From a virus, in IMG/VR virus record IMGVR_UViG_3300045996_002376, positions 1-50,141 of that record: a stretch of DNA of 50,141 nucleotides; one strand, 5' to 3'. Made by a program: the position numbers and the translations under genes. This document shows, piece after piece, positions 6,342 through 48,720 of this stretch (position 1 is the stretch's first letter; each line of letters starts with the position of its first letter). A model generated the notes under the pieces. It was given only the letters and a program-made list of their open reading frames with translations. It did not search any database and was not told the DNA's origin.

Positions 6342-6363
6342 GGTGTGCTCCTGGTGGTTCGGG

Positions 6364-6400
6364 TGGCGGGCTGGCCGGATCGAAGCGGGTCAGCCCGCCA
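6364..6400 (-). terminator. Hairpin between 6406 gene and initiator gene
   Basis: Arms TGGCGGGCTG (6364-6373) and CAGCCCGCCA (6391-6400) pair perfectly over 10 bp around a 17-nt loop, with no U-run on the minus strand. It fills most of the only real gap in this operon, so it may attenuate transcription into the replication genes. Confidence 0.45.
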
Positions 6401-6405
6401 GGTCT

Positions 6406-16108: not shown

Positions 16109-16115
16109 GGTCACC

Positions 16116-16313
16116 TCACGGTGGGTCGGGTTGTTCCGGGGTGAGGTCGCCGACAACCCAGACACGGCCCTCACGGATCTCGGTGCGCACCCGCACCGCC
16201 ACGTCGGTCAGGCCGGCCAGCGCGACGGCCTCCTCCATGCGGGCACGGACCTGCCTGACCGCCTCGTCGACCTCGTCCTGATCCACGTCCTCGGCACCGG
16301 GGGACGACTCCAC
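16116..16313 (-). CDS. Small acidic protein (65 aa)
   Basis: Unknown function. Acidic N terminus (SSPGAEDVDQDEVDEAVRQV), then RVRTEIREGRVWVVGDLTP, a short beta hairpin. Placed between the collagen-like protein and the endolysin with 3- and 7-nt gaps. Confidence 0.6.
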   Translation of the reverse strand: MESSPGAEDVDQDEVDEAVRQVRARMEEAVALAGLTDVAVRVRTEIREGRVWVVGDLTPEQPDPP

Positions 16314-21882: not shown

Positions 21883-24800
21883 CTAGATCCGTGTGCCGCG
21901 CAGCAGCGCGTCGGCCGAGTCCTGGTCGTAGTGCTCGATGCGGCCGTCCACGTACGCGGTCAGGCCGTCGCCGCTGATCGCCAACTCACCGGTGATCCGG
22001 CCGCCGCCGGAACCCACGCTCTCCATCGAGCGCCACTGCTGGTCGGTCAGTACGGGTTCGGGGCGGCCGGTGCCGTTGTAGACGGTGGAGTAGCCAGGCG
22101 GCAGGTACCCGCCCTGGTCAAACGCCCAGTGCACGTGATCGAAGTGATCGGCCTGGGTCGGCCCGTCGTAGGTGAACGGGCGACCGTTGAGGATGTTCGC
22201 GCCCGGCGTGTAGATCAACTGGGTCGAGTTGGGGAACACCTTCGCGATCCACGAGTTGATCGCACCCATCGGCCCGCCGATGTCGATCGCCCGACCCTTG
22301 CCGTGATAGCCAGGGTCACCAGGACGGAACGAGCTGTTCAACGTCGCCGAGGGGAAGGCGGCGCGGATGATGGCCCACATCGACTGCCAGCCCATCGGCG
22401 TACCGCCCGGCCCGCCCGCACCTGCCACGGCCGCCGCGGCTTCGTCGCTGGCGAACCCGAACGACGCCTTGATCTTGTTCCACAGCCAGTCCGCGCCGCT
22501 GCTGATCAGCTTCCCGGGCGTGCGGGCGACGAGGTCTGTCCACCCGGTCGACCCGATCTGCGCCTTGATGTAGGCGATCGGGTCCTTCCACAGTGAGGCG
22601 ACGTCGTCGCCGATCCCGGACATCCAGCCCAGCAAGTTCCCGACGATGCCCCCGTCGGCGAACCGCTGCACCACCCCGCCCTGCGAGAACCCCGCCGGGC
22701 CACCGGTACCCACACCGCCGTCCGAGCGGCCACCAGAGAAGTACCTGTTCGCCCAACCCACGAACCCGGCGCCCAACCCACGGACCGCCTCCGGGACCAG
22801 CCAACCCTCACCCGGGCTGGCCAGGACCGGCACGCTGTCCACACCCGGGGCGTAGCCGGGCAGGACACCGCCGTGCGCCATGTGCTGCATCGGCCTGCCG
22901 CCGCCGTTCGCGGAGCCGCCGCCGAAGTTGATCGGCGCGAGTTCACCGAGGCCGACCAGGCCCGCGACCTTGTTCCACACGGCGCGGATGCCGTTGTTGT
23001 AGACCACGTCGATGACCCACTTGATGGGCGCCGACAGGATGTCGTACACCCGATCCCACGCCGTTTTGATCATGTTGACCGCGACGTCGAAGACCGTACC
23101 CAGCGTCGACGCGGCGCTCTTGACCGCCTCGAACGTCGGCCGGATCAGCGTCTCCCACACCGCGGAGATCGCCGCACCCAGCGCGTTCCAGACGGGCTGG
23201 ATCACGTTGTGCCACACGAACGCGAACGCCGAGCCGAGCGCGGACACCGCGGCCCCGATGGCTGCGAACACCGGCATCGCCACCGTGGTCCACAACCACG
23301 ACAGTGCGGCGCCGATCGCCGACAACGCCGGGGAGATCGCGTTGGTCCACAGCCACGAGAACACCGCGCCCCACGCCTGGACATAGGCGATGATCCAGCC
23401 GATCACCGGCGACAGGATGGTCGTCCACAGCCACGACGCGGCCACACCGATCGCCTCGAACACGTACTTGAGGGCGTGTTCCCACAGCCACATCCCGATC
23501 GCGGCCAGCAGCTTGAACGCGAACACCGCCGGCAGCACGAACGCCGTGATCAGGATCGCCGCGGCGATCCGCGCGACCAGCGAGATCCCGTCGAACAGCG
23601 GCTTGAGCACGTTGACCCACAGCCACGTCGCCGCCGCGCCGACGGCCTTCACCGCCGTGACGATCCCGTCGAACGCGGGCTTCAGCGCGTTCTCCCACAC
23701 CCACACCGCGGCCCGCTGGATCCCTCCCCACACCACGGCCCACAGATCCTGGAACCACGTGGTCTGCGTCGCGATCCACACGATCGCACCGACCAGAGCG
23801 GCGATGGCGATCACGATGATGCCGATCGGGTTCAGGCCCATCGCCACGTTCAAGGCGACCTGCGACGCAGTCCACATCTGGTAGAACCGGACGATCTTCG
23901 AGATGATCAGGTAACCCTTGAGAGCGAGCGCACCAGCCACGAACCCGACCGCGATGGCCGGTAGCGCGGGCGCCAACCAGGCCAGCAGGGCAACCAAGGG
24001 CGGCAGCACGGCCGCAGCCAGCTGGCCCAGTATGGTCACCAGCGGCGCCACGGCCACCGCAGCCACCGAGAACGCCGCAGCCAGCGCCGGCACCTCGGGC
24101 CCGAGCGCGATGATCCCCGAGAACAACGCACCGGCCACCGCCTGGACACCCGGCAGCAGGTTCTGCACCACGTCGTGCAACGTGGTGAACAGCGTGGTCA
24201 GAGCGGTCTGTCCCTGCGCCGACGACAGCAGCGCCGCCACCGCCCCGGTCACCTGGATCACCGTGTCCAACAGGCCACCGCTGCTGGAGGCCTGCGCCGC
24301 CTGGAACACCGCGCCGACGATCGACCCGACGTTGCCCAGCAGGACGCCGAGCTGCTCCAGTGCCGAGAACCCGGACCGGATCCAGCCTTCCAACTGGCCG
24401 GACGCGCGGGCCTGTGCGATGAACTCCGCCGCGCCGACCGCCGCGCCGCCGAAACCGCCCGTGATGTCGGCCAGCACGATCGCGCCGACCGCAACCACGT
24501 CGCGGAGGATCGCCAGCAGCGGCTGTGTCGCGGCGACCGTGTTCCCCACCGCCACCGTGGACCGCTCGAAGATCAGCGGGACGTCGGCCAGCGTCTGCTG
24601 CTGCCGCAGGAACCCGCCGGCCTCCTTCGCCGCCGTGTTCCAGGCCCCCGCCATCTCCACCAGCCCGGTGCGGGCCATCGGCAGGTAGTCGCGGCCCAAC
24701 GTGCGGACCTCCGCCGCCACCCCCGCGAACAGACGGCCCTGCACGTCGAGCCGCAGCACGTCGAGAGCGGGCTTCATCCGCACGTACTCGCCGACCACCG

Positions 24801-25593
24801 CGCGCGCGGGCTCGGCCAAGCCCGCGGTGGCCTTGGCCAGCTTCTCCGCGTCGCCCTCGGCGGCGGCCTTCATCGCCTCGCCCAAACCGGACACGCCGAT
24901 CTTCAGCGCGCCGACCGCCGCCTGACCCGCCACCAACGCGGCCGGCAGCACCAACCCGGCACCCGCGGCCGTCCCCAGCGCGCCACCCAGCGCCGCGACC
25001 ACCGGCACCGCCGTGCCGATCGCCGACACCCCGGACGCGACCTGATAGGCGGCCAGCGAGACGCCCAGGGCCTGGCGGCGGGCGTTGCCCAGCGACCGGG
25101 CCATGTTGTCGACGCCTTCGCCCTGCTGCCACAACTTCACCAGCGCCGACGTGCCGCGCTTCGCCGACGCTTCAAGCTCGTCCATCGCCGCCGTGTTGCG
25201 GCGTTGCGCGGCTTCCAACGCCGTCGCCGCGCGCGTGGCCGTGGTCTTCGCGTCCGCTGCGGCACGCGTCGCCTTCGACAGCCGTTCCTCGGCCGCCGTG
25301 AGCTGCGCCGCCGTGGTGTTGCCCTTCGTCCGGGCCTCGGTCAGCTTTTCCTCGGCGACCCGCACCGCGCCGGTGGCGTCCGCCTCGCGCTTGCGGGCCT
25401 TGTCGAGCTTGTCCGCCAGCGCCTGCACGTCGTCGGCGGCCTTGGACGCGGCCTGCTTGTCGACCTCCGGCACGATCCGTGCCGTGGCGTGGACGTCGAT
25501 CGCCTTCAACTCGGTCGCGGTGATCTTCTGAAACCCGCGCAAGGACGGGAGTAGTTGAACGTACGCAGCACCGGCGAGATAGCGAGGAGCCAA
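21883..25593 (-). CDS. Tape measure protein with LAS/M15-like peptidase motif
   Basis: 1236 residues; sets tail length (at about 0.15 nm per residue, near 185 nm). N-terminal coiled coil (25-150), long Ala/Gly/Val hydrophobic region, then repeated Trp-containing units (SWLWTNAISPALSAIGAALS, WLWTTVAMPVFAAIGAAVSA) at about 620-870. Near the C terminus H1097-x6-D1104 (YHGKGRAIDIGG) and H1153-x-H1155 (DHFDHVHWAF) give the H-x6-D / H-x-H zinc arrangement of LAS/VanY-type peptidases, which may help wall penetration. Start is TTG 25593 behind GAGGGGG; no ATG/GTG fits better, and YVQLLPSLRGF is a typical tape-measure start. Confidence 0.93.
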   Translation of the reverse strand: MAPRYLAGAAYVQLLPSLRGFQKITATELKAIDVHATARIVPEVDKQAASKAADDVQALADKLDKARKREADATGAVRVAEEKLTEARTKGNTTAAQLTAAEERLSKATRAAADAKTTATRAATALEAAQRRNTAAMDELEASAKRGTSALVKLWQQGEGVDNMARSLGNARRQALGVSLAAYQVASGVSAIGTAVPVVAALGGALGTAAGAGLVLPAALVAGQAAVGALKIGVSGLGEAMKAAAEGDAEKLAKATAGLAEPARAVVGEYVRMKPALDVLRLDVQGRLFAGVAAEVRTLGRDYLPMARTGLVEMAGAWNTAAKEAGGFLRQQQTLADVPLIFERSTVAVGNTVAATQPLLAILRDVVAVGAIVLADITGGFGGAAVGAAEFIAQARASGQLEGWIRSGFSALEQLGVLLGNVGSIVGAVFQAAQASSSGGLLDTVIQVTGAVAALLSSAQGQTALTTLFTTLHDVVQNLLPGVQAVAGALFSGIIALGPEVPALAAAFSVAAVAVAPLVTILGQLAAAVLPPLVALLAWLAPALPAIAVGFVAGALALKGYLIISKIVRFYQMWTASQVALNVAMGLNPIGIIVIAIAALVGAIVWIATQTTWFQDLWAVVWGGIQRAAVWVWENALKPAFDGIVTAVKAVGAAATWLWVNVLKPLFDGISLVARIAAAILITAFVLPAVFAFKLLAAIGMWLWEHALKYVFEAIGVAASWLWTTILSPVIGWIIAYVQAWGAVFSWLWTNAISPALSAIGAALSWLWTTVAMPVFAAIGAAVSALGSAFAFVWHNVIQPVWNALGAAISAVWETLIRPTFEAVKSAASTLGTVFDVAVNMIKTAWDRVYDILSAPIKWVIDVVYNNGIRAVWNKVAGLVGLGELAPINFGGGSANGGGRPMQHMAHGGVLPGYAPGVDSVPVLASPGEGWLVPEAVRGLGAGFVGWANRYFSGGRSDGGVGTGGPAGFSQGGVVQRFADGGIVGNLLGWMSGIGDDVASLWKDPIAYIKAQIGSTGWTDLVARTPGKLISSGADWLWNKIKASFGFASDEAAAAVAGAGGPGGTPMGWQSMWAIIRAAFPSATLNSSFRPGDPGYHGKGRAIDIGGPMGAINSWIAKVFPNSTQLIYTPGANILNGRPFTYDGPTQADHFDHVHWAFDQGGYLPPGYSTVYNGTGRPEPVLTDQQWRSMESVGSGGGRITGELAISGDGLTAYVDGRIEHYDQDSADALLRGTRI

Positions 25594-26804: not shown

Positions 26805-27467
26805 TCAGGTCAGCGCCGGGAAGCCCATGGCGACCAAGAGGCTCCGCCAGCCGGGGCCGCCGAAGTAGTGGCGCACGCTGTAGCCGGCCGTGGAGTCGAC
26901 CGCCGCCGACATCGTCATCTGGTAGGCCACCGGGTCGTCCCCGTCGGTCCACACCTGGTCACCGCGTTCCGTGACCGACGCCCGCGGCAACGACCGGCTC
27001 ACGTAGATCGCGTCCACACCGGAGCCGTCCACGAAGATCCCGTACGCCCGGTAGTACTTCGTCGACGGTCGGGTCGGCTGGGAGAACTGCACCTCGCCCG
27101 TGATCGCGGTCGGCGTCACGCCGGACAGGTCCACGTCGTAGTACATCTGCAGGCTCAGCAGCTTGGTCTCCTGCGCGGTGAACTGCAGGCCGTTGACGTC
27201 GGCGTTGATGTCGCGCCGGGTCGGGTCGAACGCACCCCACGACGTCACCTCGGACACCTCGGTCGAGCGGGACCAGGTGGCGCCGTCGTCCTTGGACACC
27301 CAGCCGATGTCCTCGTACCCGGTGGGCAGCGTGGCCAGGTCGGCGCTCGCGCCGGTGGTGAGGGTCGTGGGCAGCGTGCTGGACATCGGTGCGAAGAACA
27401 GCGACCCGGCCAGCGCCTTGCGGATCAGTTCGACCTGCTTGTTCGCCAGGTCCTCGTATGCGGGCAT
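26805..27467 (-). CDS. Major tail (tube) protein
   Basis: 220 residues. LATLPTGYEDIGWVSKDDGA, then VSEVTSWGAFDPTRRDINAD and GLQFTAQETKLLSLQMYY match the tail-tube pattern of actinophages (a beta sandwich that polymerises into hexameric rings). Gene order (after tail terminator, before chaperones and tape measure) agrees. Flanked by hairpins on both sides. Confidence 0.88.
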   Translation of the reverse strand: MPAYEDLANKQVELIRKALAGSLFFAPMSSTLPTTLTTGASADLATLPTGYEDIGWVSKDDGATWSRSTEVSEVTSWGAFDPTRRDINADVNGLQFTAQETKLLSLQMYYDVDLSGVTPTAITGEVQFSQPTRPSTKYYRAYGIFVDGSGVDAIYVSRSLPRASVTERGDQVWTDGDDPVAYQMTMSAAVDSTAGYSVRHYFGGPGWRSLLVAMGFPALT

Positions 27468-29094: not shown

Positions 29095-30039
29095 TCAGGC
29101 CATCGTGATCTTGACGGCGCGCACGAAGTCCGGGTCGGTGCCCACGTCCGCGCCGTCCGTGCCGTCGGCGACGATGTTCGTGCCGATGTAGGTGTCCACC
29201 AGCGACCGGTCCTGCACGTTGCGGAAGTCGTAGTCCCGCAGCCACCGCATCGCCAGACCCTGGAACGCCTGCGCCTGGCCGAACGTCGCACCCGACGGGA
29301 CCGCCGGGGCGCGCATGCCCAACACGTAGGCCGTGCGGTGGAACGCGAAGCCGACGTTCGCGGGCAGCGCGTTGGACACGTACACCGGGCCGAAGCCCGC
29401 CAGCCGGCCGATCTGCGCGTCCCGCAGGGCGCTGTCGGAGCCGGACTTGTCGACGTCCTTGAGCTTGTCGGACTTGAGGAACACGCCCTCCATGTCCGCG
29501 CCGACCACCAGGAACCGGTCGGTGCGCGGCACGTTGGCCTTGTTCAGGGCCACGTTCGCGTCGATCGCGGTCTTGGAGGGGTCGGTGGTGTCCAGGGTGA
29601 GCGTGGTGGCGTAGGTCGCGCCCACCATCTCCGCGACCACCGCGTTCTCGATGCCCTCGGCGACGGCCCGTACCTGCGGCGCGAGGATCTGCGTGCCGAA
29701 GTCGGTGATGTCGAGGGTGAGCTCCTCGTCGGTGATCGGCACCGCGTTGTACACGTCGGTGTCGAGCGTGACGTCGACCTTCGTCTCGGTCAGCTCGTCC
29801 ATCGTGATGATGCCGGTGCCCTCCGACGCCGCCCCGCGAGCGCCGCGCAGCACTCGCGTGCGCGCCTGCGTGCGGGCCGGGACGCGGATGGTGATGGTGT
29901 CGCCGGCCGCGCCGACGTAGTTGCCGCCGGTGCTCGCGCCCGCGTCGCGCCACACCAAGGCGGGGAGCACGATGTCGCGCTCCAGCAACCCCAGCGCGGC
30001 GGCCGCGATACGCGTCGCCTTCAGGAACGTGTTCGCCAC
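29095..30039 (-). CDS. Major capsid protein (P22 coat-like, HK97 fold)
   Basis: 314 residues. Opening MANTFLKATRIAAAALGLLE then DTITIRVPARTQARTR is characteristic of the P22-type coat family in actinophages. DVYNAVPITDEELTLDITDF, RTDRFLVVGADMEGVFLKSD and FAFHRTAYVLGMRAPAVPSG are further landmarks. Preceded by a scaffold gene and followed by connector genes. Self-assembles into the icosahedral shell. Confidence 0.92.
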   Translation of the reverse strand: MANTFLKATRIAAAALGLLERDIVLPALVWRDAGASTGGNYVGAAGDTITIRVPARTQARTRVLRGARGAASEGTGIITMDELTETKVDVTLDTDVYNAVPITDEELTLDITDFGTQILAPQVRAVAEGIENAVVAEMVGATYATTLTLDTTDPSKTAIDANVALNKANVPRTDRFLVVGADMEGVFLKSDKLKDVDKSGSDSALRDAQIGRLAGFGPVYVSNALPANVGFAFHRTAYVLGMRAPAVPSGATFGQAQAFQGLAMRWLRDYDFRNVQDRSLVDTYIGTNIVADGTDGADVGTDPDFVRAVKITMA

Positions 30040-31536: not shown

Positions 31537-32916
31537 CTACTCCCCGGCCAGACCGGTGGCTTGCTGCTCCAACCGGTCAGCCAACGTCACCAGCGGGTCG
31601 GCCACCTGCATCTTGGCCCACTCGTCGACGTCGGACTTCTCGACGCCGGGGATCATGCCCCACAGCGCGCGCTTCGGGATCTCCAACTGGTCGGCGAACT
31701 TCCCCAACGCGTCCGCGGCCTGCGCCAACGACCGGATGTCCATGTCCTGCCAGGTGACCCGGGCCATGACGTCGTTCGCGTCGTCCTCACGGCCCTCAAG
31801 ATGCGCCGCGAGCTGCAGCGACTGCACGTGCGAGGTGCCGGTGGTCTTCTCCCGCTCGTACACCTTCTGCCGCAACCCCGCCCTCGCCGCGGCCAGGGCG
31901 TCGGCGGAGAGGTTCACCAACTGGCCGGTCAGGGTGTGGGTGGGGGTCTGCGACACCGCCGCCAGCGCCTCGATGTCGGAGCGCCACGAGTTCACGAACG
32001 GATCCAGCGGCGTCTCGTCGAGCGTGCCGAACCGGGTGTCCTTGCTGGTGGACATGAGCATGTCGCCCTGCCGCAGCAGCAACGCCACCTTGTCCGCCTC
32101 GGCCTCGGTGTCCGGCTTCGCCATGCCGGTGGCAAAGCGGATCTTCCACGAGTTGAAGTGCTGCGCCAGCAGCCGGTCGTAGGCGGTCTTGTTGATCCGC
32201 TTCGCCGCCGGGATGAACGGCTTCACCTCGCCGTCGCTGCGCCCGTCGAGGTCGAGCATGTTCGCGTAGCGCACGAACGGCGTCACCCCCGCGCCGTGCG
32301 TGTCGTAGGAGATGTAGGTGATCCCGGAGCCGGACTTGTCGGACGACAGGTAGTGCACGTCCTGCTCGTCGTAGAGCCGCAGCATCAGTTTGTCGCCGGA
32401 CACCTCGACCTGCAGCACGAACATCGGCCAGTCGTCCTCGGCCGGGTCCTGGTACACCGCATAGGCCTTGCGCGGGGACACACCGCGCATCGACGCCGTC
32501 GGCTCACCACCCCACATGCCGGGCAGGACCCGCACGAACGCGTACCCGTAGGCCAGCATCGCCCGGTGCACCGCGATCTGCCGGTTGTCGAACTTGTTCG
32601 CCTTCCACGTGCGCCACGGACCCATCGGCGCCGGGTCATCGTCCTCGTCGTTCCCGCCGGGCGGATACAGCGGGGACCGGTAGGAGTCGACGTACATGCA
32701 CTGCGCAACGGTGGTGACCACCAGGTTCAGCCACGGCGTCTCCGACAGGTCCCGCAGCATGCGCAATTCGGGCGTCGTCTCGCGCGGCAGCGTCAACGGG
32801 TCAGGGGTCCACCGGTACCAGTTGTCGATCGTGTCCAACCGGTCCCGCTCGGCCTCCCAGCCGGGGAACAAGTCCCGCTTCACCAGGTCCACCACGGACT
32901 TCTGCGCCATCACCAC
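31537..32916 (-). CDS. Portal protein (SPP1 gp6-like)
   Basis: 459 residues. RMLRDLSETPWLNLVVTTVA, YVDSYRS, HRAMLAYGYAFVRVLPG, TPFVRYANMLDLDGRS and IEALAAVSQTPTHTLTGQLV are typical of the SPP1 gp6-like portal family. Forms the dodecameric DNA channel at the capsid vertex. GTG 32916, GTG 32913 and ATG 32910 are in frame; the GAGGGAGG upstream suits the first, but its spacing (11 nt) leaves the start uncertain by two codons. Confidence 0.92.
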   Translation of the reverse strand: MVMAQKSVVDLVKRDLFPGWEAERDRLDTIDNWYRWTPDPLTLPRETTPELRMLRDLSETPWLNLVVTTVAQCMYVDSYRSPLYPPGGNDEDDDPAPMGPWRTWKANKFDNRQIAVHRAMLAYGYAFVRVLPGMWGGEPTASMRGVSPRKAYAVYQDPAEDDWPMFVLQVEVSGDKLMLRLYDEQDVHYLSSDKSGSGITYISYDTHGAGVTPFVRYANMLDLDGRSDGEVKPFIPAAKRINKTAYDRLLAQHFNSWKIRFATGMAKPDTEAEADKVALLLRQGDMLMSTSKDTRFGTLDETPLDPFVNSWRSDIEALAAVSQTPTHTLTGQLVNLSADALAAARAGLRQKVYEREKTTGTSHVQSLQLAAHLEGREDDANDVMARVTWQDMDIRSLAQAADALGKFADQLEIPKRALWGMIPGVEKSDVDEWAKMQVADPLVTLADRLEQQATGLAGE

Positions 32917-32938: not shown

Positions 32939-34774
32939 TCAACGACCCCAGATCGTCCCGGCGTCCACCAGCTCCGGCTGCTCCACCTTGTTCAACACCA
33001 GCCGGCGCACCATCCCCGCGCCGACCATGCACACCGCCAGGTCGATCTTCTTCGAGGACTCCTTGGCGCCCTTCCACAGCGACACTCCGTACCGGTTCGG
33101 GTAGCGCTTGGCGTTGCGCACGTGCTGCCGCAACCTGCGGTCCCCGTCGTGCACCAACGCCCGCTCCTCGATCTCCGAGACCGTGCGCTCCGCGGCCGCC
33201 GTGAACTCCGCGACCCGCGCCGGAGAGGTCATGTCCCACATCACCGCGTGCCCGCTCTTGCCCGGCACCGCCCACACCCGCAACCGGGAGTGGTAGCGGC
33301 GATGCCACCGGTCGATCAGGTCGTCCCAGTAGCGTTCCTGCGTCTCGTCGTCCCGCGTGTGCGACGGGTCGGCGAAGAAACCCTGCACTTGGAAGTCCTC
33401 GAACACCGCGGCGACCCGCTGGTCCACGACCTCCCGCGGCGCCGTCCACGTCTCACCGCGACGCCCGGGCGGTTTCTGCCACAGCCCGAACACCACCCGC
33501 AGCCCGTCCGACAGGCGCGCACCGACCAGGCCGGTGGAGTCGTCGGACTTCGACCCGTCGAAGAACAGGGCGATCTCGTCACCCGGCATCAACGTCAGCA
33601 CGTCGGGGCCCGCTTCGCACAGGTCCCAGTCCTTCGGGTCGGCCCAGGCGTCCTCGTCGGCGACGATCTGGTTGAACCAGAACCGCCGACTCGTGGACAC
33701 GGCGTTGCGCTTGTCCAGGATCGACTTCACGATCCGCGCCAGCCGCAGCCACACCGAATCCCCACGCACCGACGCGATGACCTCGCCGATCACCTGCTGG
33801 ACCTGCTCCAGCGACGGCTCCTGCCCCTTCGGCAACCCCAACGCCGCCGCGATGCCATCCGGGGTGATCGGCGCGTCCGGCGCGGCCTCCAGCGAGTCGT
33901 ACAGCAGACCCGTGTCCGCCGCCGTGCCCGCCTGGACCTCCTCCCACACCTCCCGGTCGTGCTGCGCCACCGAGTCCTCGGACGGCTCGTAGGCGTTCGT
34001 GATCCGCAACGTCCGCGCCGCGCCGTCCGCCGACTTCGTGGCGTTACGCTCGATCACCTTCGCCATCTCGTGGCCCTGGTTCGACGCGTTCCAGTGCTGC
34101 GTCTCGTTCGGCAGCACGAACGTCGCCCGCGCACCCTCCAGCGTCTGAGGCGACGACGTCACCGCCTGGATGAGCCGCTCACCGCCCAGCCCGTAGACGG
34201 TCTCCTTGCCGATCTGCAGGTCGTACTCGGCTTTCGCCTCGTCGGTGAACAGCCGCGGGAACAGGCGAAACGTGTTCTTCGTCTGCTCCAGCGACACGGC
34301 GGCGGTCTGCACCCACGCGTCCGGGCAGTCCGTCGCGATCGGCTCGCCGTCGTCGTCCCAGCCCAGGAACCGGCAGGGCCCGAACGCCTCGACCCCGCAC
34401 AGGGTGGCACCGACCGGGTCCTTGCCCCATCCCTTCAACCGCTGCAGCACGCCATCGCGGTAAAGGAACTCGCCGTCGTCGTCGAGCGCGAACCAGTGCA
34501 GCACGAACCTGGCCTGCTCCAGCGTGTACCGCCACGGCTTCCCGCGCCCGTGCTGCAACCACACCCCGGTCCACCCCAGCACCGACCAGCCGAGGGTGCG
34601 CTCCGGCAACAGCCAATGCCCGTCCTCGGTGGTCTGCCACGTCGGCCCGATGATCGACGGTGCCCACCGGTAGGACTCGCGCGGCGGCGCCGGACGCGAC
34701 AACAGCGCCCGGTAGTGCTCGATGACAGGGGAGTACGGGTCGTCCTCGACAACGGCAGCGCGTCTACGCGCCAC
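32939..34774 (-). CDS. terL: Terminase large subunit
   Basis: 611 residues, GTG start. ATPase domain: LEQARFVLHWFALDDDGEFL, then KGWGKDP (114-120) as a variant Walker A in the form common to actinophage TerL, VSLEQTKNTFRLFPRLF and NETQHWNASNQGHEM. The RNase H-like nuclease begins at ALFFDGSKSDDSTGLVGARL with clustered Asp residues, followed by GFFADPSHTRDDETQERY. Drives DNA into the prohead and cuts it. Overlaps the small subunit gene by 11 nt. Confidence 0.93.
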   Translation of the reverse strand: MARRRAAVVEDDPYSPVIEHYRALLSRPAPPRESYRWAPSIIGPTWQTTEDGHWLLPERTLGWSVLGWTGVWLQHGRGKPWRYTLEQARFVLHWFALDDDGEFLYRDGVLQRLKGWGKDPVGATLCGVEAFGPCRFLGWDDDGEPIATDCPDAWVQTAAVSLEQTKNTFRLFPRLFTDEAKAEYDLQIGKETVYGLGGERLIQAVTSSPQTLEGARATFVLPNETQHWNASNQGHEMAKVIERNATKSADGAARTLRITNAYEPSEDSVAQHDREVWEEVQAGTAADTGLLYDSLEAAPDAPITPDGIAAALGLPKGQEPSLEQVQQVIGEVIASVRGDSVWLRLARIVKSILDKRNAVSTSRRFWFNQIVADEDAWADPKDWDLCEAGPDVLTLMPGDEIALFFDGSKSDDSTGLVGARLSDGLRVVFGLWQKPPGRRGETWTAPREVVDQRVAAVFEDFQVQGFFADPSHTRDDETQERYWDDLIDRWHRRYHSRLRVWAVPGKSGHAVMWDMTSPARVAEFTAAAERTVSEIEERALVHDGDRRLRQHVRNAKRYPNRYGVSLWKGAKESSKKIDLAVCMVGAGMVRRLVLNKVEQPELVDAGTIWGR

Positions 34775-41378: not shown

Positions 41379-42161
41379 CTAGTCGAGTGGTACCTCGTAG
41401 ACGAGTTGGTAGCGCTCGCCGTTCATCACCATGTCGTTGATCTCCACCGGCCTGTCGGTCGTGTCGTAGGCGATCCGGGTCACCTCGAACACCGGCGAGC
41501 CCGACTGGATGCGGAGCAGTTCGGCTTCCTCGGGCGACGCGGGGCGAGCGGAAACGTACTCGACCCCGTGGTGGAGGCGATACCCGAGACCGTCGAGCAG
41601 GGCGTAGGACCCACCCTTGCCGGTGTCGACCTCTTCGATGCGCGAACCGATGGTGATGCTGCGAGGCAGGCGTGATGTTGCGAGCTGTACGGGCACGCCG
41701 TCCGCGCTCATGACCCGCGACCGGACGGTCACCTCGTCGCCGACGTTGATGTCGAGCGCTGCGGCTGTGCGTTCGTCAGCGTGCTCGAAGGAGACCGTGG
41801 TTTGGCTGTTGGCCGTGAAGCCGCTGTAGATGGCGTCCCCCATGAATGCGCCTTGGTCGATGTCACGGCGGGCGCGTCTGAGGCGGTCCAGGCCGCGACG
41901 TTGGACGGTCGGGCGCTCACGCACGAACACCCCGGCGCCGGCACGTCCTTCGATAAGCCCTTCGTCGCGTAGGACGTTGAGGGCGTTCTGGACGGTCTGG
42001 TTGGACACGCCGAAGCGATCTTTGAGTGCCGCCGTGCTGGGGAGTTGATGCCCAGGGCGGTACTCGCCGGACCGGATGGCCGCGCGCAGCTCATCGGCTA
42101 CGCGGCGAGTGCGCGCACCGCGGGCTGGCTTGTTCTCGTTGGCGTCTTCTCCCACCTGCAC
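41379..42161 (-). CDS. GntR-family regulator (HutC/UTRA type)
   Basis: 260 residues. N-terminal winged helix: RRVADELRAAIRSGEYRPGH, QLPSTAALKDRFGVSNQTVQ, NALNVLRDEGLIEGRAGAGV. C-terminal UTRA effector domain: VQLATSRLPRSITIGSRIEE, YVSARPASPEEAELLRIQSG, PVFEVTRIAYDTTDRPVEI. GntR repressors of this kind (KorSA, TraR, KorA-type) control transfer genes of actinomycete plasmids. GTG 42161 lies directly beside operator-like repeats, so it is probably autoregulated and represses the divergent module. Confidence 0.9.
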   Translation of the reverse strand: MQVGEDANENKPARGARTRRVADELRAAIRSGEYRPGHQLPSTAALKDRFGVSNQTVQNALNVLRDEGLIEGRAGAGVFVRERPTVQRRGLDRLRRARRDIDQGAFMGDAIYSGFTANSQTTVSFEHADERTAAALDINVGDEVTVRSRVMSADGVPVQLATSRLPRSITIGSRIEEVDTGKGGSYALLDGLGYRLHHGVEYVSARPASPEEAELLRIQSGSPVFEVTRIAYDTTDRPVEINDMVMNGERYQLVYEVPLD

Positions 42162-42261: not shown

Positions 42262-42468
42262 ATGACCACCGACGCCGACCCCGAGACGTTGATCCCGGTC
42301 ACCGAGCTCGCCAGGCAGGTGCGGGTGCACCGCACGACGATCTACCGCTACATCCGGCTCGGACTGCTTCCGGCCCACCGCATCGGCATCGGCAAGGGCA
42401 CCCTCCGCGTCGCGGAGAAGGACTGGGATGCCTACCTCGCCGCCTGCCGCGAAGCCGCCACCCCCTAG
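42262..42468 (+). CDS. Excisionase/AlpA-like HTH protein (68 aa)
   Basis: LIPVTELARQVRVHRTTIYR then YIRLGLLPAHRIGIGKGTLR and VAEKDWDAYL form the MerR-like fold of Xis proteins (HTH plus wing). ATG 42262 follows GGAGAG. First gene of the transfer-like module; in integrative conjugative elements such a gene often pairs with int, but the only integrase here is 28 kb away, so a regulatory role is equally possible. Confidence 0.8.
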   Translation: MTTDADPETLIPVTELARQVRVHRTTIYRYIRLGLLPAHRIGIGKGTLRVAEKDWDAYLAACREAATP

Positions 42469-42535
42469 ACCCGTGTCGCGCCTGGCGCCCCCGAACCCGG
42501 GCGCGGCACGGCCCACCAACCCGAAGGAGGACGAC

Positions 42536-42994
42536 GTGCGCATGACCCCCGAACTTCACCTAGGCCGCGTCGCCTACCACGAGCTCGCGCATGCCGTCGT
42601 CGCCCTCCACTTCACCGACCTGGGACTTGAGGTCGAGGGCTGCACCCTCACCCCCACCGGTAACAGTCGCTACACGGGCGTCACCGGCGTCGACTCTCCC
42701 GAGTGGGAAGACGACCGGGAGGTCGCCGACGCCCTCGTCACCGTCTACGCCGCCGGCGCGGTGGGTGCCCGCCGCTACCTCACCGGAGCCGGTATCCGCA
42801 ACGCCCGTTGGTGGGCTGAACGCAGCGCTTGGCACGACGAGCAGGCGTTCAACCTCATCGCCCGGTACAGCTCCCTCACCTGGGACGCGGCGACCGAATC
42901 AGCCGAACTCGTCCTCACCGACGCCTGGCTTCGGGTTGAGAAGGCCGCAACCAGGTTGACCACCGACATGCACCTGCCCGCACACCTCATCTGA
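42536..42994 (+). CDS. Stand-alone HExxH peptidase-like protein 1 (152 aa)
   Basis: YHELAHAVVALHF gives H15-E16-x-x-H19, followed by Asp101 in SAWHDEQAFNLIARY, which matches the third zinc ligand region of FtsH-type (M41) peptidases. The family's AAA+ ATPase and membrane helices are absent, so this is a solitary protease domain. The Gly-rich GGRxAEE segment is degenerate (AAGAVGARRY). GTG 42536 is 5 nt after AAGGAGG and is preferred to ATG 42542. Activity unproved. Confidence 0.7.
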   Translation: MRMTPELHLGRVAYHELAHAVVALHFTDLGLEVEGCTLTPTGNSRYTGVTGVDSPEWEDDREVADALVTVYAAGAVGARRYLTGAGIRNARWWAERSAWHDEQAFNLIARYSSLTWDAATESAELVLTDAWLRVEKAATRLTTDMHLPAHLI

Positions 42995-43345: not shown

Positions 43346-43828
43346 GTGACGACCGTCGTGGCCACACCCACAGCAGAAGTAGCCCACCGGCTTGCCCCGT
43401 ACCGACAGTCCGCGGCCCACCACGAAGCCGGACACGTCGTCATCGGCGCACTGCTGGGCGACCCGGTCGACCGCGTCGACATCTGGTACATGCGTGACCG
43501 CGGCTGGCTGCGCGGAGAGACCTGGTCCGTCACCGGCGTGACGGAGGTTGACGTCGTCGACGCAACCCACGGGCTGCTGGTCGCTGTCGCCGGTGCGGTA
43601 GCCGAAGCCCGCTGGAGCGGCCGCCCGCTGCACGCCACGCAGGCCGCCAACCCCAGCGACAAGGCCGCCGTCACCCACTACCTCCCCGACGCCGACCTCG
43701 ACGAGCGTGTCGCCGCCGCCCACGTGGACGGATGGCTCCTCGACTACTGGGCGTCGGTGTCCGCGGTAGCCGAAGCCCTCATCGAGTACGGGTCGCTGTC
43801 CGCCGCCGATCTGTCCCGCCTCCTCTGA
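43346..43828 (+). CDS. Stand-alone HExxH peptidase-like protein 2 (160 aa)
   Basis: SAAHHEAGHVVIGALLG carries H26-E27-A-G-H30, identical to the FtsH (M41) active-site motif. AGAVAEARWSG corresponds to the family's GGRAAEE region and NPSDKAAVTHYL provides Asp105 as a possible third ligand. Again no AAA+ or membrane part. GTG 43346 follows GGAAGGA. Related to the 42536 product only in the active-site layout, so an old duplication or independent recruitment. Confidence 0.75.
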   Translation: MTTVVATPTAEVAHRLAPYRQSAAHHEAGHVVIGALLGDPVDRVDIWYMRDRGWLRGETWSVTGVTEVDVVDATHGLLVAVAGAVAEARWSGRPLHATQAANPSDKAAVTHYLPDADLDERVAAAHVDGWLLDYWASVSAVAEALIEYGSLSAADLSRLL

Positions 43829-43845
43829 CCTCTGGAGACCACACG

Positions 43846-44742
43846 ATGTTCGCGCGTACGCGCACCGACGACCGCTCCGCACGACGCTGGCCCCGCGCCG
43901 CCGTCTGGGGTGGCGCAATCGCCTCCACCGCGATGAACCTCTCGGCGAACTGGCACGCGACCACCGTCCGCGGCGTCACCACGTTCGTCGCACCGACCGC
44001 CAACGGCCTGCACCTGCCCGAGGTGACCAAGCTCGTCGTGTCGGCCGCGTTCCCCCTGCTGCTGATCTTCGCGGTGGAGTCGGCGGCACGCACGAGCCTG
44101 CGGTTCCGGTTCGGCGACCTCGGGTCGTACGCGATGCCGCTCGGCGCGCTGACGGTGTTCGCGTTCTCGGTGGGCGAGGTGACCCGGCTGCTGCTGGGCA
44201 TGGGCATGCCCCCTCATCTCGCGGCGCTGTTCGCGTTGGCCCCGGACATCCTCATCACCGCCGGGACGGTCGTGCTGATGCGTGAGCGCGCGGTGCTGCG
44301 CCAGACGGTGGCCACACCGTCGGCGCCGATCGTCGACCACTCGGTGTGGGACGTGGACATCGACGACCCGGCCCTGCCCGTCCCGACCACCTACCTGAAG
44401 GCCGTCCCGGTCGTTGCGGCGAAGGAGCCGCCCGTCCCGGTCGAGCAGGAGGACGTCCCGGCATCCCGGGAGCAGACGGCGGACGTCCCGCCTCCGAAGC
44501 CCCGGACCAAGACGTCGGCCGCGTCCCACCCGACTCGTCCCGCCCGCACGGTCGTGGCGATGTCCACCGCCGAGGACGACGCCCCGCTGATCGCCGACAT
44601 CACCAGGTACCGGGACGCCAACGGCGGGTCGTGGCCGACCGCGCACCACTGCAAGAAGAACTTCGCGACGTCCCACCGCCGGGCGTCCCGCGTCCTGGCT
44701 GCCATGCGGAGTGAGACGTCCCTGGTGGAGGTGGCGGGATGA
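43846..44742 (+). CDS. DUF2637 membrane protein with C-terminal wHTH-like domain
   Basis: 298 residues. Four membrane helices at about 20-150: VWGGAIASTAMNLSANW, LVVSAAFPLLLIFAVESA, YAMPLGALTVFAFSVGEVTR and LAALFALAPDILITAGTVVL, the DUF2637 (SpdB-like) arrangement of actinomycete plasmids. A Val-Pro-rich linker follows, then ADITRYRDANGGSWPTAHHC with FATSHRRASRVLAAMRSETS, a winged-helix-like end. Probably part of the membrane complex for intermycelial DNA spread. The linker DNA is dense in CGTCCC. GGAG precedes ATG 43846. Confidence 0.8.
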   Translation: MFARTRTDDRSARRWPRAAVWGGAIASTAMNLSANWHATTVRGVTTFVAPTANGLHLPEVTKLVVSAAFPLLLIFAVESAARTSLRFRFGDLGSYAMPLGALTVFAFSVGEVTRLLLGMGMPPHLAALFALAPDILITAGTVVLMRERAVLRQTVATPSAPIVDHSVWDVDIDDPALPVPTTYLKAVPVVAAKEPPVPVEQEDVPASREQTADVPPPKPRTKTSAASHPTRPARTVVAMSTAEDDAPLIADITRYRDANGGSWPTAHHCKKNFATSHRRASRVLAAMRSETSLVEVAG

Positions 44743-45906
44743 GCACCTCCACCCCGGGACGTCCCACCCCGCCCGCCGGGACGCCGCGTCCCGGCCCCGG
44801 CGTCCCGCCCGTCCCACCGCCTGGCCGTCCCGCGGCGTCACCCCCGCGTCCCGGGACGGCCTTCCCGGGGACGCCCCGTCCCGCGCCCGCCTCCCCCGTG
44901 GAGGACGCGGGCGGGGCGTCCTCCCTTCCGCAGATCACGACCAGCGGTGTCGACCCGCGCGTCCTGGCGTGGGCGCTGGGAGTCCCGCTGCTCGTCGCCG
45001 TCGCGGTCGCCGCCTGCGTGTGGCTGCCCGCGGCTGCGGCGTGGTCGGTGCTGGCCGTGCTGCTCGCCGCCGCCGGTCTGGCTGTCCTGCGCGGCCGGGG
45101 ACGTTCCGGTCCGGGACGGTTCGGGCGGCGTCGCGCCGGTGGTGTGTTCGGGGGGCGTCCCGGCCGTTCGGCGGGCGGGCGTCCTAGTGGGCGTGGTCTG
45201 CTCGGCAAGCTGACGCGTCCCGGTGCGGGGCGTCCCGGTGGCGGGCGCGGGCGGGACGGGCGGTTCGCGCGTCTCGGTCGCAACCTGGCGTCCCGCGCGT
45301 CCCGAAGGTTCCCGCGCGCGGCCGCGGCGGGACGTGCGGCGGCGGGACGCGCCCGCGCCGCCGTGGCCGGGACGCGGGGACGTCTGCCGCGCGCGCTGGG
45401 TGGGACGCGTCCCGCCGGGACGTCCCGCGGTGCGTCCCGGGGCAGGCGTCCCGGTGGTCGTCCCGGTGGGCGTCTCGGGTCGGTCGCGTCCCGCCTGACC
45501 GGGGGACGTCTCGGCCGGACGTCCCGCCGCAACGGGGGACGTCCGGGCGGGACGTCGAGCACCGGGACGTCACGCCGGGGGACGCGTCCCGGGAGTGGCT
45601 CGTCGGGAACGTCCCGCCGTCCCGGTTCGCGCGGCGGACTGCTCGGTCTGCTGGGCGTCCCGGGACGCGAGCAGGGGCGGGGTGGAGCGGTCGCGGCGAC
45701 CGACGGCGACATGACCGGCGGGACCTCCCGCCCCCCGGACGCCGCCACCCCGGGGGGCGTCACCCCGGACGACCCGGAGCGGGACGGCCCCCTGCCCGAC
45801 GACGAGGACGAAGGCCGGGACGTCTCGGGGCTGTCGCGGTGGCAGCGCTGGGGCTACGGCCTCGCCGACCGGCTGCAGTCCGCCGACCCACGCCGCTGGT
45901 GGGACG
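44348..45906. repeat. Dense GGGACG/CGTCCC motif cluster (57 copies)
   Basis: I count 57 copies of GGGACG or its complement CGTCCC in about 1.56 kb, one per 27 bp, against roughly 3 expected from composition (my estimate). They occur in both orientations and in all three codon phases (as Arg-Pro, Val-Pro, Gly-Thr, Gly-Arg, Ala/Thr-Ser-Arg), and form palindromes: GGGACGTCCC at 44756 and 45417, GGGACGCGTCCC at 45402 and 45579, CGTCCCGGGACG at 44847 and 45656. The following FtsK-type gene (2 kb) has a single copy. Phase independence argues for selection on the DNA itself, for example recognition sites of the downstream motor. Confidence 0.8.
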
Positions 45907-46559
45907 CGTTCATCGAACCCGCGAAACCCGCACCGCCGGACCTGACCCCCTACGACACCGACGACGACGAGCCGCCCGGGCGGCTACCACCTGGGGTGCT
46001 GCCGGACGAAGTGCCGCCGGCGCCGACGTGGCCCTCGGTCGACGAAGACGACCCGCAACGGGACGCCCCTCCCTGGCCCGACCTCGACCCCGACCCCGAA
46101 GGCCCGCCAGCCGTCGAGCCAAGACCAGAGGACGACGAGGAAGACGAGGTCGAACCGGCGTCGTCCCACCCCTCACCTCACGTCTCACCTCACCCGCGTG
46201 AGCAGCACCAACCGCATCCGGAACCGATCACCACAGGGAGCGCCACCATGGCAGTCGACGCCAGCCAGTACACCGAGAACATCGACCTTTCCACCCCTGA
46301 GAGCCGCTTCTCCAGCTGCATGACCGCAGCCGAGCGGGCCCGGACCGACGCCGCCCGCTGCGAGCGCGAGGCGCAGGAGTTCTTCGACGAGGCCGCCAAG
46401 CTCGACACCGTGCCCGGCTCCACGGCAGAGGCCGCCCGGCTGCGCCGCGAGGCCGAGTCGCTGAAGGAGGACCGTGACCGGCGCCGTGCGATCGCCGCCG
46501 GGCTGGAGAAGCGGGCCGGTGCGGCGCCGCAGCCGGTGACGGCCGGGACGACGAGGTGA
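44739..46559 (+). CDS. SpdB-like membrane protein, G/R-rich, acidic tail and coiled coil (606 aa)
   Basis: Pro-rich residues 1-65; two membrane helices at about 76-96 and 97-117; a very basic Gly/Arg/Ser region at 118-330 encoded by the GGGACG-rich DNA; an acidic Asp/Glu/Pro region at 335-490; and a coiled coil at 504-606. The frame is uninterrupted. No recognised domain beyond a resemblance to Spd (spread) proteins. Basic region may bind DNA at the membrane. A second start at 46248 with its own AGGGAG could make the last 103 residues separately. ATG 44739 overlaps the DUF2637 stop by 4 nt. Confidence 0.65.
   Translation: MSTSTPGRPTPPAGTPRPGPGVPPVPPPGRPAASPPRPGTAFPGTPRPAPASPVEDAGGASSLPQITTSGVDPRVLAWALGVPLLVAVAVAACVWLPAAAAWSVLAVLLAAAGLAVLRGRGRSGPGRFGRRRAGGVFGGRPGRSAGGRPSGRGLLGKLTRPGAGRPGGGRGRDGRFARLGRNLASRASRRFPRAAAAGRAAAGRARAAVAGTRGRLPRALGGTRPAGTSRGASRGRRPGGRPGGRLGSVASRLTGGRLGRTSRRNGGRPGGTSSTGTSRRGTRPGSGSSGTSRRPGSRGGLLGLLGVPGREQGRGGAVAATDGDMTGGTSRPPDAATPGGVTPDDPERDGPLPDDEDEGRDVSGLSRWQRWGYGLADRLQSADPRRWWDAFIEPAKPAPPDLTPYDTDDDEPPGRLPPGVLPDEVPPAPTWPSVDEDDPQRDAPPWPDLDPDPEGPPAVEPRPEDDEEDEVEPASSHPSPHVSPHPREQHQPHPEPITTGSATMAVDASQYTENIDLSTPESRFSSCMTAAERARTDAARCEREAQEFFDEAAKLDTVPGSTAEAARLRREAESLKEDRDRRRAIAAGLEKRAGAAPQPVTAGTTR
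46171..46195. repeat. Tandem CTCACCTCAC repeats upstream of motor gene
   Basis: CCTCACCTCACG followed by TCTCACCTCACC, two 12-bp units. The same unit (TCTCAT/CCTCAC) recurs twice directly and twice inverted just after the FtsK-type gene at 48593-48686. Here it encodes part of the acidic region (SPHVSPH). Confidence 0.55.
46248..46559 (+). CDS. Possible nested gene: coiled-coil protein (103 aa)
   Basis: In-frame ATG 46248 preceded by AGGGAG at 46235-46240, a better ribosome binding site than many starts in this window. The product would be AVDASQYTENIDLSTPESRF plus a charged coiled coil (ARCEREAQEFFDEAAKLDTV, AEAARLRREAESLKEDRDRR). It would be produced in addition to, or instead of, the end of the 606-aa protein. 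Confidence 0.5.
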   Translation: MAVDASQYTENIDLSTPESRFSSCMTAAERARTDAARCEREAQEFFDEAAKLDTVPGSTAEAARLRREAESLKEDRDRRRAIAAGLEKRAGAAPQPVTAGTTR

Positions 46560-48589
46560 CCCCCCGCGGCGGGTCCGCCCGTGTTTCCGCTGGTGGCGGA
46601 GTCAGTGTGAAGACGGTCGCCGTGCTCGGCGGACTGGTCGCCACCGTCTGCCTCACCCTGGTGGCGGTGGCGACGGACCCGCCGCGGTGGCTGTTGGTCG
46701 TCGTTGCCCTTGTGGTCGGCGTCGGGCTGGCCGGCGCCGGGCACTGGGTGATGGTCGACGCCGACGCCCTGGTGGAGATCCCGACCGGGCAGCGGCGTTG
46801 GATGGCGCACCTGGTCGCCGTCGCCGTGGTCGCGCACATCGCCTGCCTGGTGGTGTTCACGCTGGTCGAAGGTCTGCGCTGGCAGATCGCCGCGGCGTTG
46901 GCCTGCCTGGTGGTGCTGGAGTGGCTGGTGGCGGTGGTGTGGAACTGGACGCTCGCCCACGTACGCCCCCGGCCGCACGCCGAGGTTGTGCCGTTCGTTC
47001 CCGACGTCGAACCCGACCCCGCTCCCGAGCAGTCGCTGGAAGCCACGTTCCACCGTGCCCTCGCCTTGGAGGGCTTGCAGTACGTGCAGGTCATCCGCGC
47101 CACCGAACTGCCCTACGGCGCCTCGTTCACCTGCCGCACCCCCTCCGCGTTGGCTGCCGCGGCCGGCGGAAAACCGGCCAAGGTCGCCCCGCTGACGAGC
47201 GACGACGCCGACCGCATCGGCAACGCGCTGATGGAGGAGACCGGTATTCCGATCCAACGCGGCTGGGTCCAGGTGACCGACGAGCCCTATCCGAACGTCG
47301 TCACCGTCACCGTCACCACCCAGGACGTGCTCGCCATGGCCCACCCCTACCCGCTGGAGGAGGAACCGCTGCCGCCCGGCGCGCCGGCGACGATCGGGTT
47401 CCGCATCGACGGCGCCCCGATCGAGCTCAACGTCCACCAGCACGGCATCGTCGTGGGCAAGACCCGCTCCGGGAAGACGTCGCTGGTCAACGTGGTGCTC
47501 GCGGAGTTGATGCGCATGCCGGGCCGCAAGCAGCTGTGCGGCGCGGAGAAGGTGTACGACCTGGCCGGGCAGTGGCTGGACCCGCACTTGGGGACCGACA
47601 ACCCGCTGCCGCTGGACTGGGTACGAGAAGGACAGGACGACACCCTGGCGCTGCTCGTCGAGGGCATGAGGGAGGCGCGGTGGCGGCAGAACCTGCCGCA
47701 CGCGGACCGCGTCGGCCTGGACCCGCTGTGGATCGTGGTCGAGGAAGCCCCGCGAGTGCTCAAGGACCGGACACGCAAGGCATGGTTCGAGGGCCGCTGG
47801 TATGTGGCCACCGAGCTGGTGGCGCACATGATGCGCTCTACCGCCAGCTCCGGGGTGTTCCTGATCCTGCTGGCCCAGGAGTACGACAACGCGATGTTCG
47901 GCGACGACGCCGCGTCGATCAAGGCCAACACCGGCTACACGATCCTCATGCGGTCCAAGGACGGCGACGAGCGGAGCAGGGCGTTCGGTGCGGGCGGGGC
48001 GAAGCTGCCCAACCTGTACAACGCGGGCGAGTTCTACATCGAGGACGGCTCGGCGCCCTACCGCGGCAAGGCCCGCTACATCCAGGAGGTGGATGCGCGG
48101 ATGCGGCGGTTGCACGACGGGGCGACCCTGACCGATGTGACGGTGTCCCGGTCCCGGCTGGTTTCCGCTCTGACCGGGGGCCGCACGGCGCCTCCGACTG
48201 AGCTGTACGCGTCCCGTCCGACCCGCATGACCAGCTCTTATCGGGAGTATCTGCGTGGCATCGGCCGGGGGGACACCCCCGAACCGGAGCCGTTGGAGGC
48301 GTCGGTGGAGCGGGAGTTGGATGCGGTGTTCGCCCAGCTGGAGACCGGTGGCGCCGCGACACCGGAGACCCGGGTGGAGCTCTCCGATGTGCCTCCGGCC
48401 AAGCGGACGCTGCTGGACCGCATCGTGGAGGTGGTCACCGAGCAGGGGCCGATCGCCCGCCGGGAGGTGCTGTCCGCGCTGCAGGCGGGCGGTGCCGTGA
48501 CCGAGTCGAGCATGGACAACGCCCTGTCGAAGCTGGTGTCCCGTGGTCAGCTGGCTCGCACGCAAGAGGGTGTGTACTCGCTGCCCTGA
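46556..48589 (+). CDS. FtsK/SpoIIIE-type DNA translocase, TraB-like
   Basis: 677 residues. Four N-terminal membrane helices at about 18-38, 44-64, 83-103 and 108-130. Motor domain: Walker A VGKTRSGKTSL (300-310), Walker B PLWIVVEEAPRVL (390-402), then LILLAQEYDNAMFGDDAASI as the downstream FtsK motif. The C-terminal 60 residues (RIVEVVTEQGPIARREVLSA, SSMDNALSKLVSRGQLARTQ) are a winged helix, the position used by TraB/FtsK-gamma to read repeated DNA sites. In actinomycete plasmids such a protein alone transfers double-stranded DNA between mycelia. GTG 46556 overlaps the previous stop by 4 nt. Confidence 0.9.
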   Translation: MTPRGGSARVSAGGGVSVKTVAVLGGLVATVCLTLVAVATDPPRWLLVVVALVVGVGLAGAGHWVMVDADALVEIPTGQRRWMAHLVAVAVVAHIACLVVFTLVEGLRWQIAAALACLVVLEWLVAVVWNWTLAHVRPRPHAEVVPFVPDVEPDPAPEQSLEATFHRALALEGLQYVQVIRATELPYGASFTCRTPSALAAAAGGKPAKVAPLTSDDADRIGNALMEETGIPIQRGWVQVTDEPYPNVVTVTVTTQDVLAMAHPYPLEEEPLPPGAPATIGFRIDGAPIELNVHQHGIVVGKTRSGKTSLVNVVLAELMRMPGRKQLCGAEKVYDLAGQWLDPHLGTDNPLPLDWVREGQDDTLALLVEGMREARWRQNLPHADRVGLDPLWIVVEEAPRVLKDRTRKAWFEGRWYVATELVAHMMRSTASSGVFLILLAQEYDNAMFGDDAASIKANTGYTILMRSKDGDERSRAFGAGGAKLPNLYNAGEFYIEDGSAPYRGKARYIQEVDARMRRLHDGATLTDVTVSRSRLVSALTGGRTAPPTELYASRPTRMTSSYREYLRGIGRGDTPEPEPLEASVERELDAVFAQLETGGAATPETRVELSDVPPAKRTLLDRIVEVVTEQGPIARREVLSALQAGGAVTESSMDNALSKLVSRGQLARTQEGVYSLP

Positions 48590-48592
48590 GGC

Positions 48593-48686
48593 GTCTCATC
48601 TCACCTCTCATCTCACGTGCGGGGACAGACGTCTACCTGCACGGATGGGGGGTTTGTCGGTGGTGAGGTGAGAGGTGAGATGAGAC
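48593..48686. repeat. 24-bp inverted repeat after the FtsK-type gene
   Basis: Arms 48593-48616 and 48663-48686 are complementary at 23 of 24 positions. Each arm is itself two 12-bp units of the TCTCATCTCACC type. Between them, 48617-48642 holds a second imperfect dyad with AGACGTCT at its centre. It starts 4 bp after the stop codon. Could be a transfer or replication site, or a large hairpin in the transcript. Confidence 0.65.
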
Positions 48687-48720
48687 GAGGGCCCCGCACC
48701 GGGCTGGTGCGGGGCCCTCG
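48686..48720. terminator. Bidirectional terminator after transfer module
   Basis: Perfect 15-bp arms 48686-48700 and 48706-48720 (core GGGCCCCGCACC/GGTGCGGGGCCC) with a 5-nt loop, between the convergent FtsK-type gene and the 48733 gene. Confidence 0.8.

Follow-up and report, generated by a model that had tools for sequence, protein, structure and literature searches.

What reads a short DNA word that is repeated dozens of times inside protein-coding sequence, and what does the repetition serve? The question is raised by an array of GGGACG/CGTCCC hexamers in the window, that is, the whole 50,141-nucleotide stretch of viral DNA analysed here (Table 1). As its sequence indicates, the window covers all or most of the genome of a temperate siphophage from an actinobacterium, and annotation with PHROGs places head, packaging, tail and integrase genes on one element with a plasmid-type transfer module. 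This module, at 41.4-48.7 kb, comprises a GntR repressor gene, small genes and the genes A, B and C. By analogy with repressors of the KorSA/TraR type, the GntR/UTRA protein probably regulates the module, and GntR genes also adjoin the modules of L003, L012, L014, L023, L026, L041 and L043 (related loci are given by number throughout). Two small proteins encoded 5' of gene A (43346-43828 and 42428-42994) contain weak Peptidase_M41-like HEXXH stretches (HEAGH, HELAH), and a similar small HEXXH protein lies ahead of gene A in L002 (2527-3111). The A-B-C gene order is common to the window and three metagenomic relatives (L001, L002, L003), and similar, more distant modules occur in pGBA129-24a, pAmyja1 and many Streptomyces plasmids. 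Phage head or tail genes also lie on three circular relatives, pAmyja1, pGBA129-24a and the S. anulatus NBC_01333 plasmid, which thus resemble phage-plasmids. Scans of genome contigs with the motor as query gave no match.

Table 1. Coordinates of features in the window, with the basis for each assignment.
Feature	Positions	Strand	Basis or remark
Integrase	12797-14047	+	PHROGs
Amidase	15155-16174	-	PHROGs
Tape measure	21883-25473	-	PHROGs
Major tail	26805-27467	-	PHROGs
Major head	29095-30039	-	PHROGs
Portal	31537-32916	-	PHROGs
Terminase	32939-34774	-	PHROGs
GntR/UTRA repressor	41379-42161	-	Pfam UTRA 1e-28, GntR 3e-18
Gene A, DUF2637-type membrane protein, 298 aa, proposed array reader	43846-44742	+	longer ORF from 43732
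Gene A, predicted disordered linker, residues 156-242	44311-44571	+	AlphaFold2
Gene A, predicted C-terminal three-helix HTH, residues 243-296, putative recognition helix 277-296	44572-44733	+	AlphaFold2, pLDDT 85-91
Array of 57 GGGACG/CGTCCC, mostly CGGGACG	44348-45906	both orientations, irregular spacing	counts, shuffles, Markov models
Gene B, SpdB2-like: P-rich N-terminus, membrane helices, G/R-rich stretch; 48 copies in all	44739-46559	+	position and composition
Gene C, FtsK/TraB-type motor ATPase, C-terminal winged helix about 48413-48586	46556-48589	+	PF01580
CTCACC-unit inverted repeat, two 25-nt arms with 46 nt between them, directly 3' of motor gene	48592-48687		candidate clt/TRS of motor

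An exact recount of the hexamer within the array returned 57 copies, 24 on the plus and 33 on the minus strand, in agreement with the initial annotation, and the three palindromic arrangements named there were all located. Composition had been estimated to predict roughly three copies; Markov models built from the rest of the record expect 3.1 (order 1) or 1.5-1.7 (orders 2-4); a model trained on 44348-45906 itself expects 14, against the 57 seen. The remaining 48.6 kb hold 53 thinly scattered copies, the motor gene contains the single copy previously ascribed to it, and a scan of the 50-kb record for other words found none with a comparable array. The 7-nt form CGGGACG/CGTCCCG accounts for 43 of the 57 copies, and because the logo is flat further out, the unit is an asymmetric word of 6-7 bp that occurs in either orientation. 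Helical phasing of the window sites at 10-11 bp was tested and is absent. The record's second-strongest local word is CAGGTC, with nine copies at 12301-13500 around the integrase gene; these are possibly integrase arm or excisionase sites.

A repeat of this kind could be a functionless by-product of slippage and biased composition in DNA for a disordered G/R/P-rich protein. Most copies do fall where the encoded protein is disordered, phase-locked repeats do occur in coiled-coil DUF2637 genes, and 31 of the 56 spacings are multiples of three, a mild excess in which the phases are mixed though not perfectly even. Against this, genes A and B each have copies in all three codon phases and on both strands, as the initial annotation had stated, and synonymous-codon shuffles, which hold protein and codon usage constant, yield far fewer copies than are seen: 4.1 +/- 1.4 versus 13 in gene A and 12.1 +/- 3.0 versus 48 in gene B (z 11.9), with a z of 13.1 for L012. 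Because phases and strands are mixed, the word exceeds its synonymous expectation and the related array of pAmyja1 is noncoding, it is essentially shown that this is a DNA-level array, in which the word is maintained and not the individual positions, and the earlier judgement that a protein-level cause is insufficient holds. Together with the constancy of the word under site turnover and the correct advance predictions described below, these observations leave the by-product account a probability close to negligible. A protein-level or slippage origin is rejected for the window array and retained for the coiled-coil DUF2637 genes, whose phase-locked GCCGAA repeats need no DNA-level cause. Inspection of where the copies fall shows 45 of the 57 in gene B and eight in the linker-coding DNA of gene A (44300-44574). 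The 192 bp that encode membrane helices in gene B have none, whereas stretches encoding disordered protein have 51-71 per kb; that is to say, the array sits where the protein tolerates it.

Some thirty related elements, sampled through relatives, were compared, with words assigned by a local over-representation scan followed by inspection of the top word. Arrays occupy the same place in L001 (CGGGAGG), L002 (CGGGAG(G), 32 copies) and L003 (GCGGGC, 48 copies). Other words are GGACGG in pGBA129-24a, CGAGACC in Streptomyces NA02950 (36 per 1.2 kb), GGCTCA in the S. anulatus group and, among further relatives, CGGACC, CGCTAC and GCGAAC. In Streptomyces phage VWB (L060), the gene for gp24, a DUF2637-type protein, carries a CACCCG array at 5601-6700 of about 30 copies in all phases and with a strand bias of 28:4. 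The CGGGGA array of pAmyja1 lies 3' of the motor gene, in DNA that has no annotated gene and a flat codon-position G+C and is thus noncoding, and two more CGGGGA arrays lie far from the operon, at 24.0-26.3 kb and 83.35-83.95 kb (L047/L048). Overall, the arrays hold 20-60 copies spread over 0.6-3.5 kb, and among 587 one-kb windows scanned, every score of at least 7 came from such an array or from a single CTCACC cluster. The idea that every DUF2637 gene has a large array did not hold: L026 and L061 have none, L011, L025 and L062 have only the phase-locked coiled-coil repeats, and L023 (7846-8011 region) and L024 (7846-7957) have a small AGGCGA cluster, eight copies in about 110 bp. In both of these linear Streptomyces plasmids the cluster separates the DUF2637 gene from the gene that follows it, and it resembles a classical clt.

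To which protein does the word belong? Across 27 loci with ten words (351 pairs), the similarity of the last 58 residues of gene A, its putative helix-turn-helix (HTH), is at least 0.33 for pairs sharing a word and at most 0.21 for pairs with different words, giving an AUC of 1.00; the gene A membrane domain reaches 0.92 over the same pairs, and, as locus pairs are not independent, these values are descriptive and carry no probability. Individual pairs show how the parts separate. L002 and L003 are alike in membrane domain and motor type and differ in HTH and word, a pattern of new HTH and new word repeated in L010/L040, L012/L021 and L041/L042. Conversely, L001 and L002 are alike in HTH and word with diverged membrane domains, and L013 and L041 likewise share a word, their HTHs being 39% identical over 44 residues. 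The group of such natural swaps also takes in L010/L013/L040/L041/L043.

The relation was also put to a prospective test, the prediction being fixed beforehand that a search by the HTH peptide alone must yield the same word, which guards the word assignments against bias. All five full-length predictions were correct. In S. microflavus and S. californicus, where the HTH is about 50% identical to that of a Kitasatospora protein, the predicted GCGAAC was found in 18 and 24 copies in 2.4 kb; all 645 control windows hold fewer than 18. Where GGCTCA was predicted, in two cases, 22 copies each were counted, and the one CGGACC prediction gave 32. The N-terminal parts of the S. microflavus and S. californicus proteins score higher against L041, whose word is CGGACC, than against L042, and yet the word is GCGAAC, so that the word goes with the HTH and not with the remainder of the protein. 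A partial, unannotated HTH match on S. clavuligerus pSCL4 (L068) was accompanied by ten copies of the predicted word. Near this partial match, positions 1301-2300 of L068 also hold another array, of 22 CGTCAC/GTGACG copies. Alignment of ten GGCTCA genes gave 49 sites, of which three occur in all ten genes and 17 in one gene only, and yet each gene keeps 15-22; the conservation of these sites exceeds that of other hexamers 1.4- to about 8-fold in every pair listed. Few common sites and a stable count indicate that the word is maintained while positions drift, which argues against mere linkage. Taken together, these comparisons strongly support the C-terminal HTH of gene A as the putative reader of the array. 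As to whether the motif is kept among homologous elements, as the initial annotation had asked, the place of the array is kept but the word is not constant, changing together with this HTH.

The initial annotation had favoured the motor itself, reading the array through its C-terminal winged helix as a transfer-recognition array of the clt/TRS kind; in such an account the FtsK/TraB-type ATPase would be loaded there for transfer of double-stranded DNA. The repeated short word does adjoin the motor gene in the window, as in clt/TRS loci, the motor has a winged helix, and arrays and motors co-occur among the relatives. There is also a precedent in TraB of pSVH1, whose C-terminal winged helix recognises repeated 8-bp motifs (PMC3583192, PMC4170104). 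Comparison contradicts the proposal. Over the 210 pairs that have a motor, the motor C-terminus predicts the word with an AUC of 0.64, versus 1.00 for the HTH. GGCTCA lies next to three unrelated motor families, the motor C-terminus is nearly the same in L011 as in L018 (148/198) and yet only L018 has the array, and the motor C-termini of L010 and L013 are alike (74/106) while their words differ. The 57 sites, moreover, contrast with the three to nine repeats of described clt sites. The motor was rejected as the array reader on these comparative grounds, since the word does not track its C-terminus, and we consider the motor-loading account very unlikely; the other suggestion of the initial annotation, that the motif serves a different DNA-binding or segregation protein, is the one that the tracking of the word by the gene A HTH supports.

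The motor has, in addition, another conserved candidate site, the inverted repeat of CTCACC units. CTCACC/GGTGAG inverted repeats with arms of 24-29 nt also occur in L001 (2233-2329), L002 (8051-8141) and L003 (8045-8135), so that CTCACC is identical in all four close relatives, whereas their array words differ. Because this word is the same in four relatives whose motor winged helices are related, the motor probably has a site of its own, and the repeat is a better clt candidate than the array. Extra CTCACC copies lie 5' of the motor gene, at 46173 and 46185. The motor assignment itself rests on PF01580, weak in the window (E 0.006) and above cut-off in L001.

HTH and word might also travel together because recombination moves them together, the array being read by gene B, by the GntR repressor or by nothing. 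The array surrounds the HTH-coding DNA; this adjacency means that recombination could carry both and that some of the correlation can be linkage. SpdB2 of pSVH1, moreover, binds DNA, although without specificity (PMC4170104). Yet the word stays constant while sites turn over, and the shared word of L013 and L041 persists at their low HTH identity. As a reader, gene B, which has no Pfam match, is disfavoured by two comparisons: it is 70% identical in L010 and L013, whose words differ, and 46% identical in L011 and L012, where the array is absent from one and present in the other. The GntR protein is opposed by L002, whose word is that of L001: L001 has GntR genes, whereas the 3.4 kb 5' of gene A in L002 have, by eye, no GntR-like gene and an XRE-like one instead. 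Linkage or another reader is, on balance, highly improbable.

For gene A, structural models suggest how such a reader might be built. We propose that it consists of N-terminal membrane helices, a linker and a C-terminal HTH; the linker and the HTH are clear in the AlphaFold2 model, in which a three-residue turn joins the last two helices, and the membrane-type helices at residues 15-155 are predicted with low confidence. A second model, for a protein of an independent group, gives the same layout of helices, linker and HTH, with membrane helices again of low confidence. A fold search with the whole gene A model returned nothing significant and a PDB sequence search was equally uninformative, so the basis of the HTH label is the predicted geometry together with weak hits of the relative L012 to HTH families. 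The term DUF2637-type was likewise assigned to gene A by position and architecture: the window protein does not match Pfam DUF2637 (PF10935), matches for L002 (E 8e-4), L003 (E 5e-4) and L014 (within 4e-4 to 8e-4) are weak and below the curated cut-off, and L011-type relatives are named DUF2637 by PGAP.

These elements combine into a model that, as a whole, we consider probable: the 57 hexamers would be binding sites of the gene A HTH, and gene A a membrane tether for spreading or segregation. The HTH would read the word at sites in gene A's own 3' end and in neighbouring gene B, while the N-terminal helices would anchor the protein and the long disordered linker would extend to the DNA. Dozens of weak 6-7-bp sites, met by many membrane-bound readers, could then add up to a strong, multivalent, element-specific link between DNA and membrane. 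Most likely, such a tether would hold the element's DNA in place at the membrane or septum, so that it can spread within the mycelium or segregate, and would bring it to the adjacent FtsK/TraB-type motor. Swapping of word and HTH as a pair would give each element lineage a private address. We infer that gene A tethers DNA to the membrane, cooperates with the motor and serves spreading or segregation; the SpdB2-like and motor neighbours point to spreading or transfer in the mycelium.

The main alternative to spreading or transfer keeps the same reader and assigns it to stable inheritance, with the array as the centromere of a partition system and gene A as its adaptor. Iterated sites beside their reader are typical of centromeres, the three arrays of pAmyja1 are unlike one transfer origin, and plasmid-spread genes can serve stability (PMC4170104). 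On the other side, the operon partners are an SpdB2-like protein and a motor rather than a filament-forming NTPase, some of the elements have separate ParA/ParB genes, and a ParM annotation occurs only in L043 and L063, on a gene farther downstream. A Pfam search and gene inspection, which covered the small genes less than exhaustively, recognised no partition NTPase in the window module. We judge a centromere role unlikely, and spreading and stable inheritance may be one function.

DUF2637 proteins are found in hundreds of Streptomyces plasmid records, and the literature searched, which left out most subscription journals, rarely names the domain and gives no description of its function. The finding proposes a function for these proteins, delimits ten HTH-word pairs and points to a recognition code overlaid in dozens of copies on protein-coding sequence. 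It could explain how mycelial bacteria transfer and spread double-stranded DNA in an element-specific manner, or how the inheritance of phage-plasmids becomes element-specific. Whether the tether generalises we regard as evenly poised: DUF2637-type proteins would then be widespread, hitherto undescribed modular DNA-membrane tethers of actinobacterial plasmids and phage-plasmids, each lineage having its own 6-7-bp address, in dozens of copies within the coding DNA of the tether operon and swapped with the HTH, and element-specific tethering could set incompatibility or exclusion.

Several known systems share parts of this arrangement. The KOPS/SRS of FtsK/SpoIIIE are short polar words, distributed genome-wide and read by the motor's gamma domain; the array resembles them as short words beside an FtsK-family motor and differs in being local, and its irregular intervals and use of both orientations speak against a KOPS-like signal for directional loading. 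Noc and RacA bind DNA and link repeated sites to the membrane. Being ParB-related or coiled-coil proteins, they are peripheral, belong to the host chromosome and have scattered sites, whereas gene A is proposed to encode an integral membrane protein, on a mobile element whose sites form a local array. In ParR/parC and TubR/tubC, arrays of short sites are bound by a small soluble adaptor that works with a filament-forming NTPase; their repeats are fewer, regular, direct and outside genes, in contrast to the irregularly spaced, bidirectional and intragenic sites found here. SpdA2/sps of pIJ101 comprises a DNA-binding protein of the spread operon whose site lies within its own coding sequence and which affects stability (PMC4170104). 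The array shares with it a location inside the gene of its own putative reader, but sps is one conserved palindrome bound by a small protein, whereas here the word is non-palindromic, forms a long array and has a putative reader with predicted membrane helices. The clt/TRS sites of pSVH1, pIJ101, pJV1 and pWTY27 span about 50-175 bp with 3-9 repeats, which the winged helix of the motor recognises (PMC3583192, PMC4170104), and that of pWTY27 includes 16 bp of traA and is thus partly coding (PMC3583192). As with these sites of Streptomyces TraB proteins, short repeats lie near an FtsK-like motor in an spd/tra module, the word is plasmid-specific and part of it falls in coding DNA; unlike them, the arrays described here reach 20-60 copies over 0.6-3.5 kb, and their word tracks the HTH of a putative membrane protein and not the motor.
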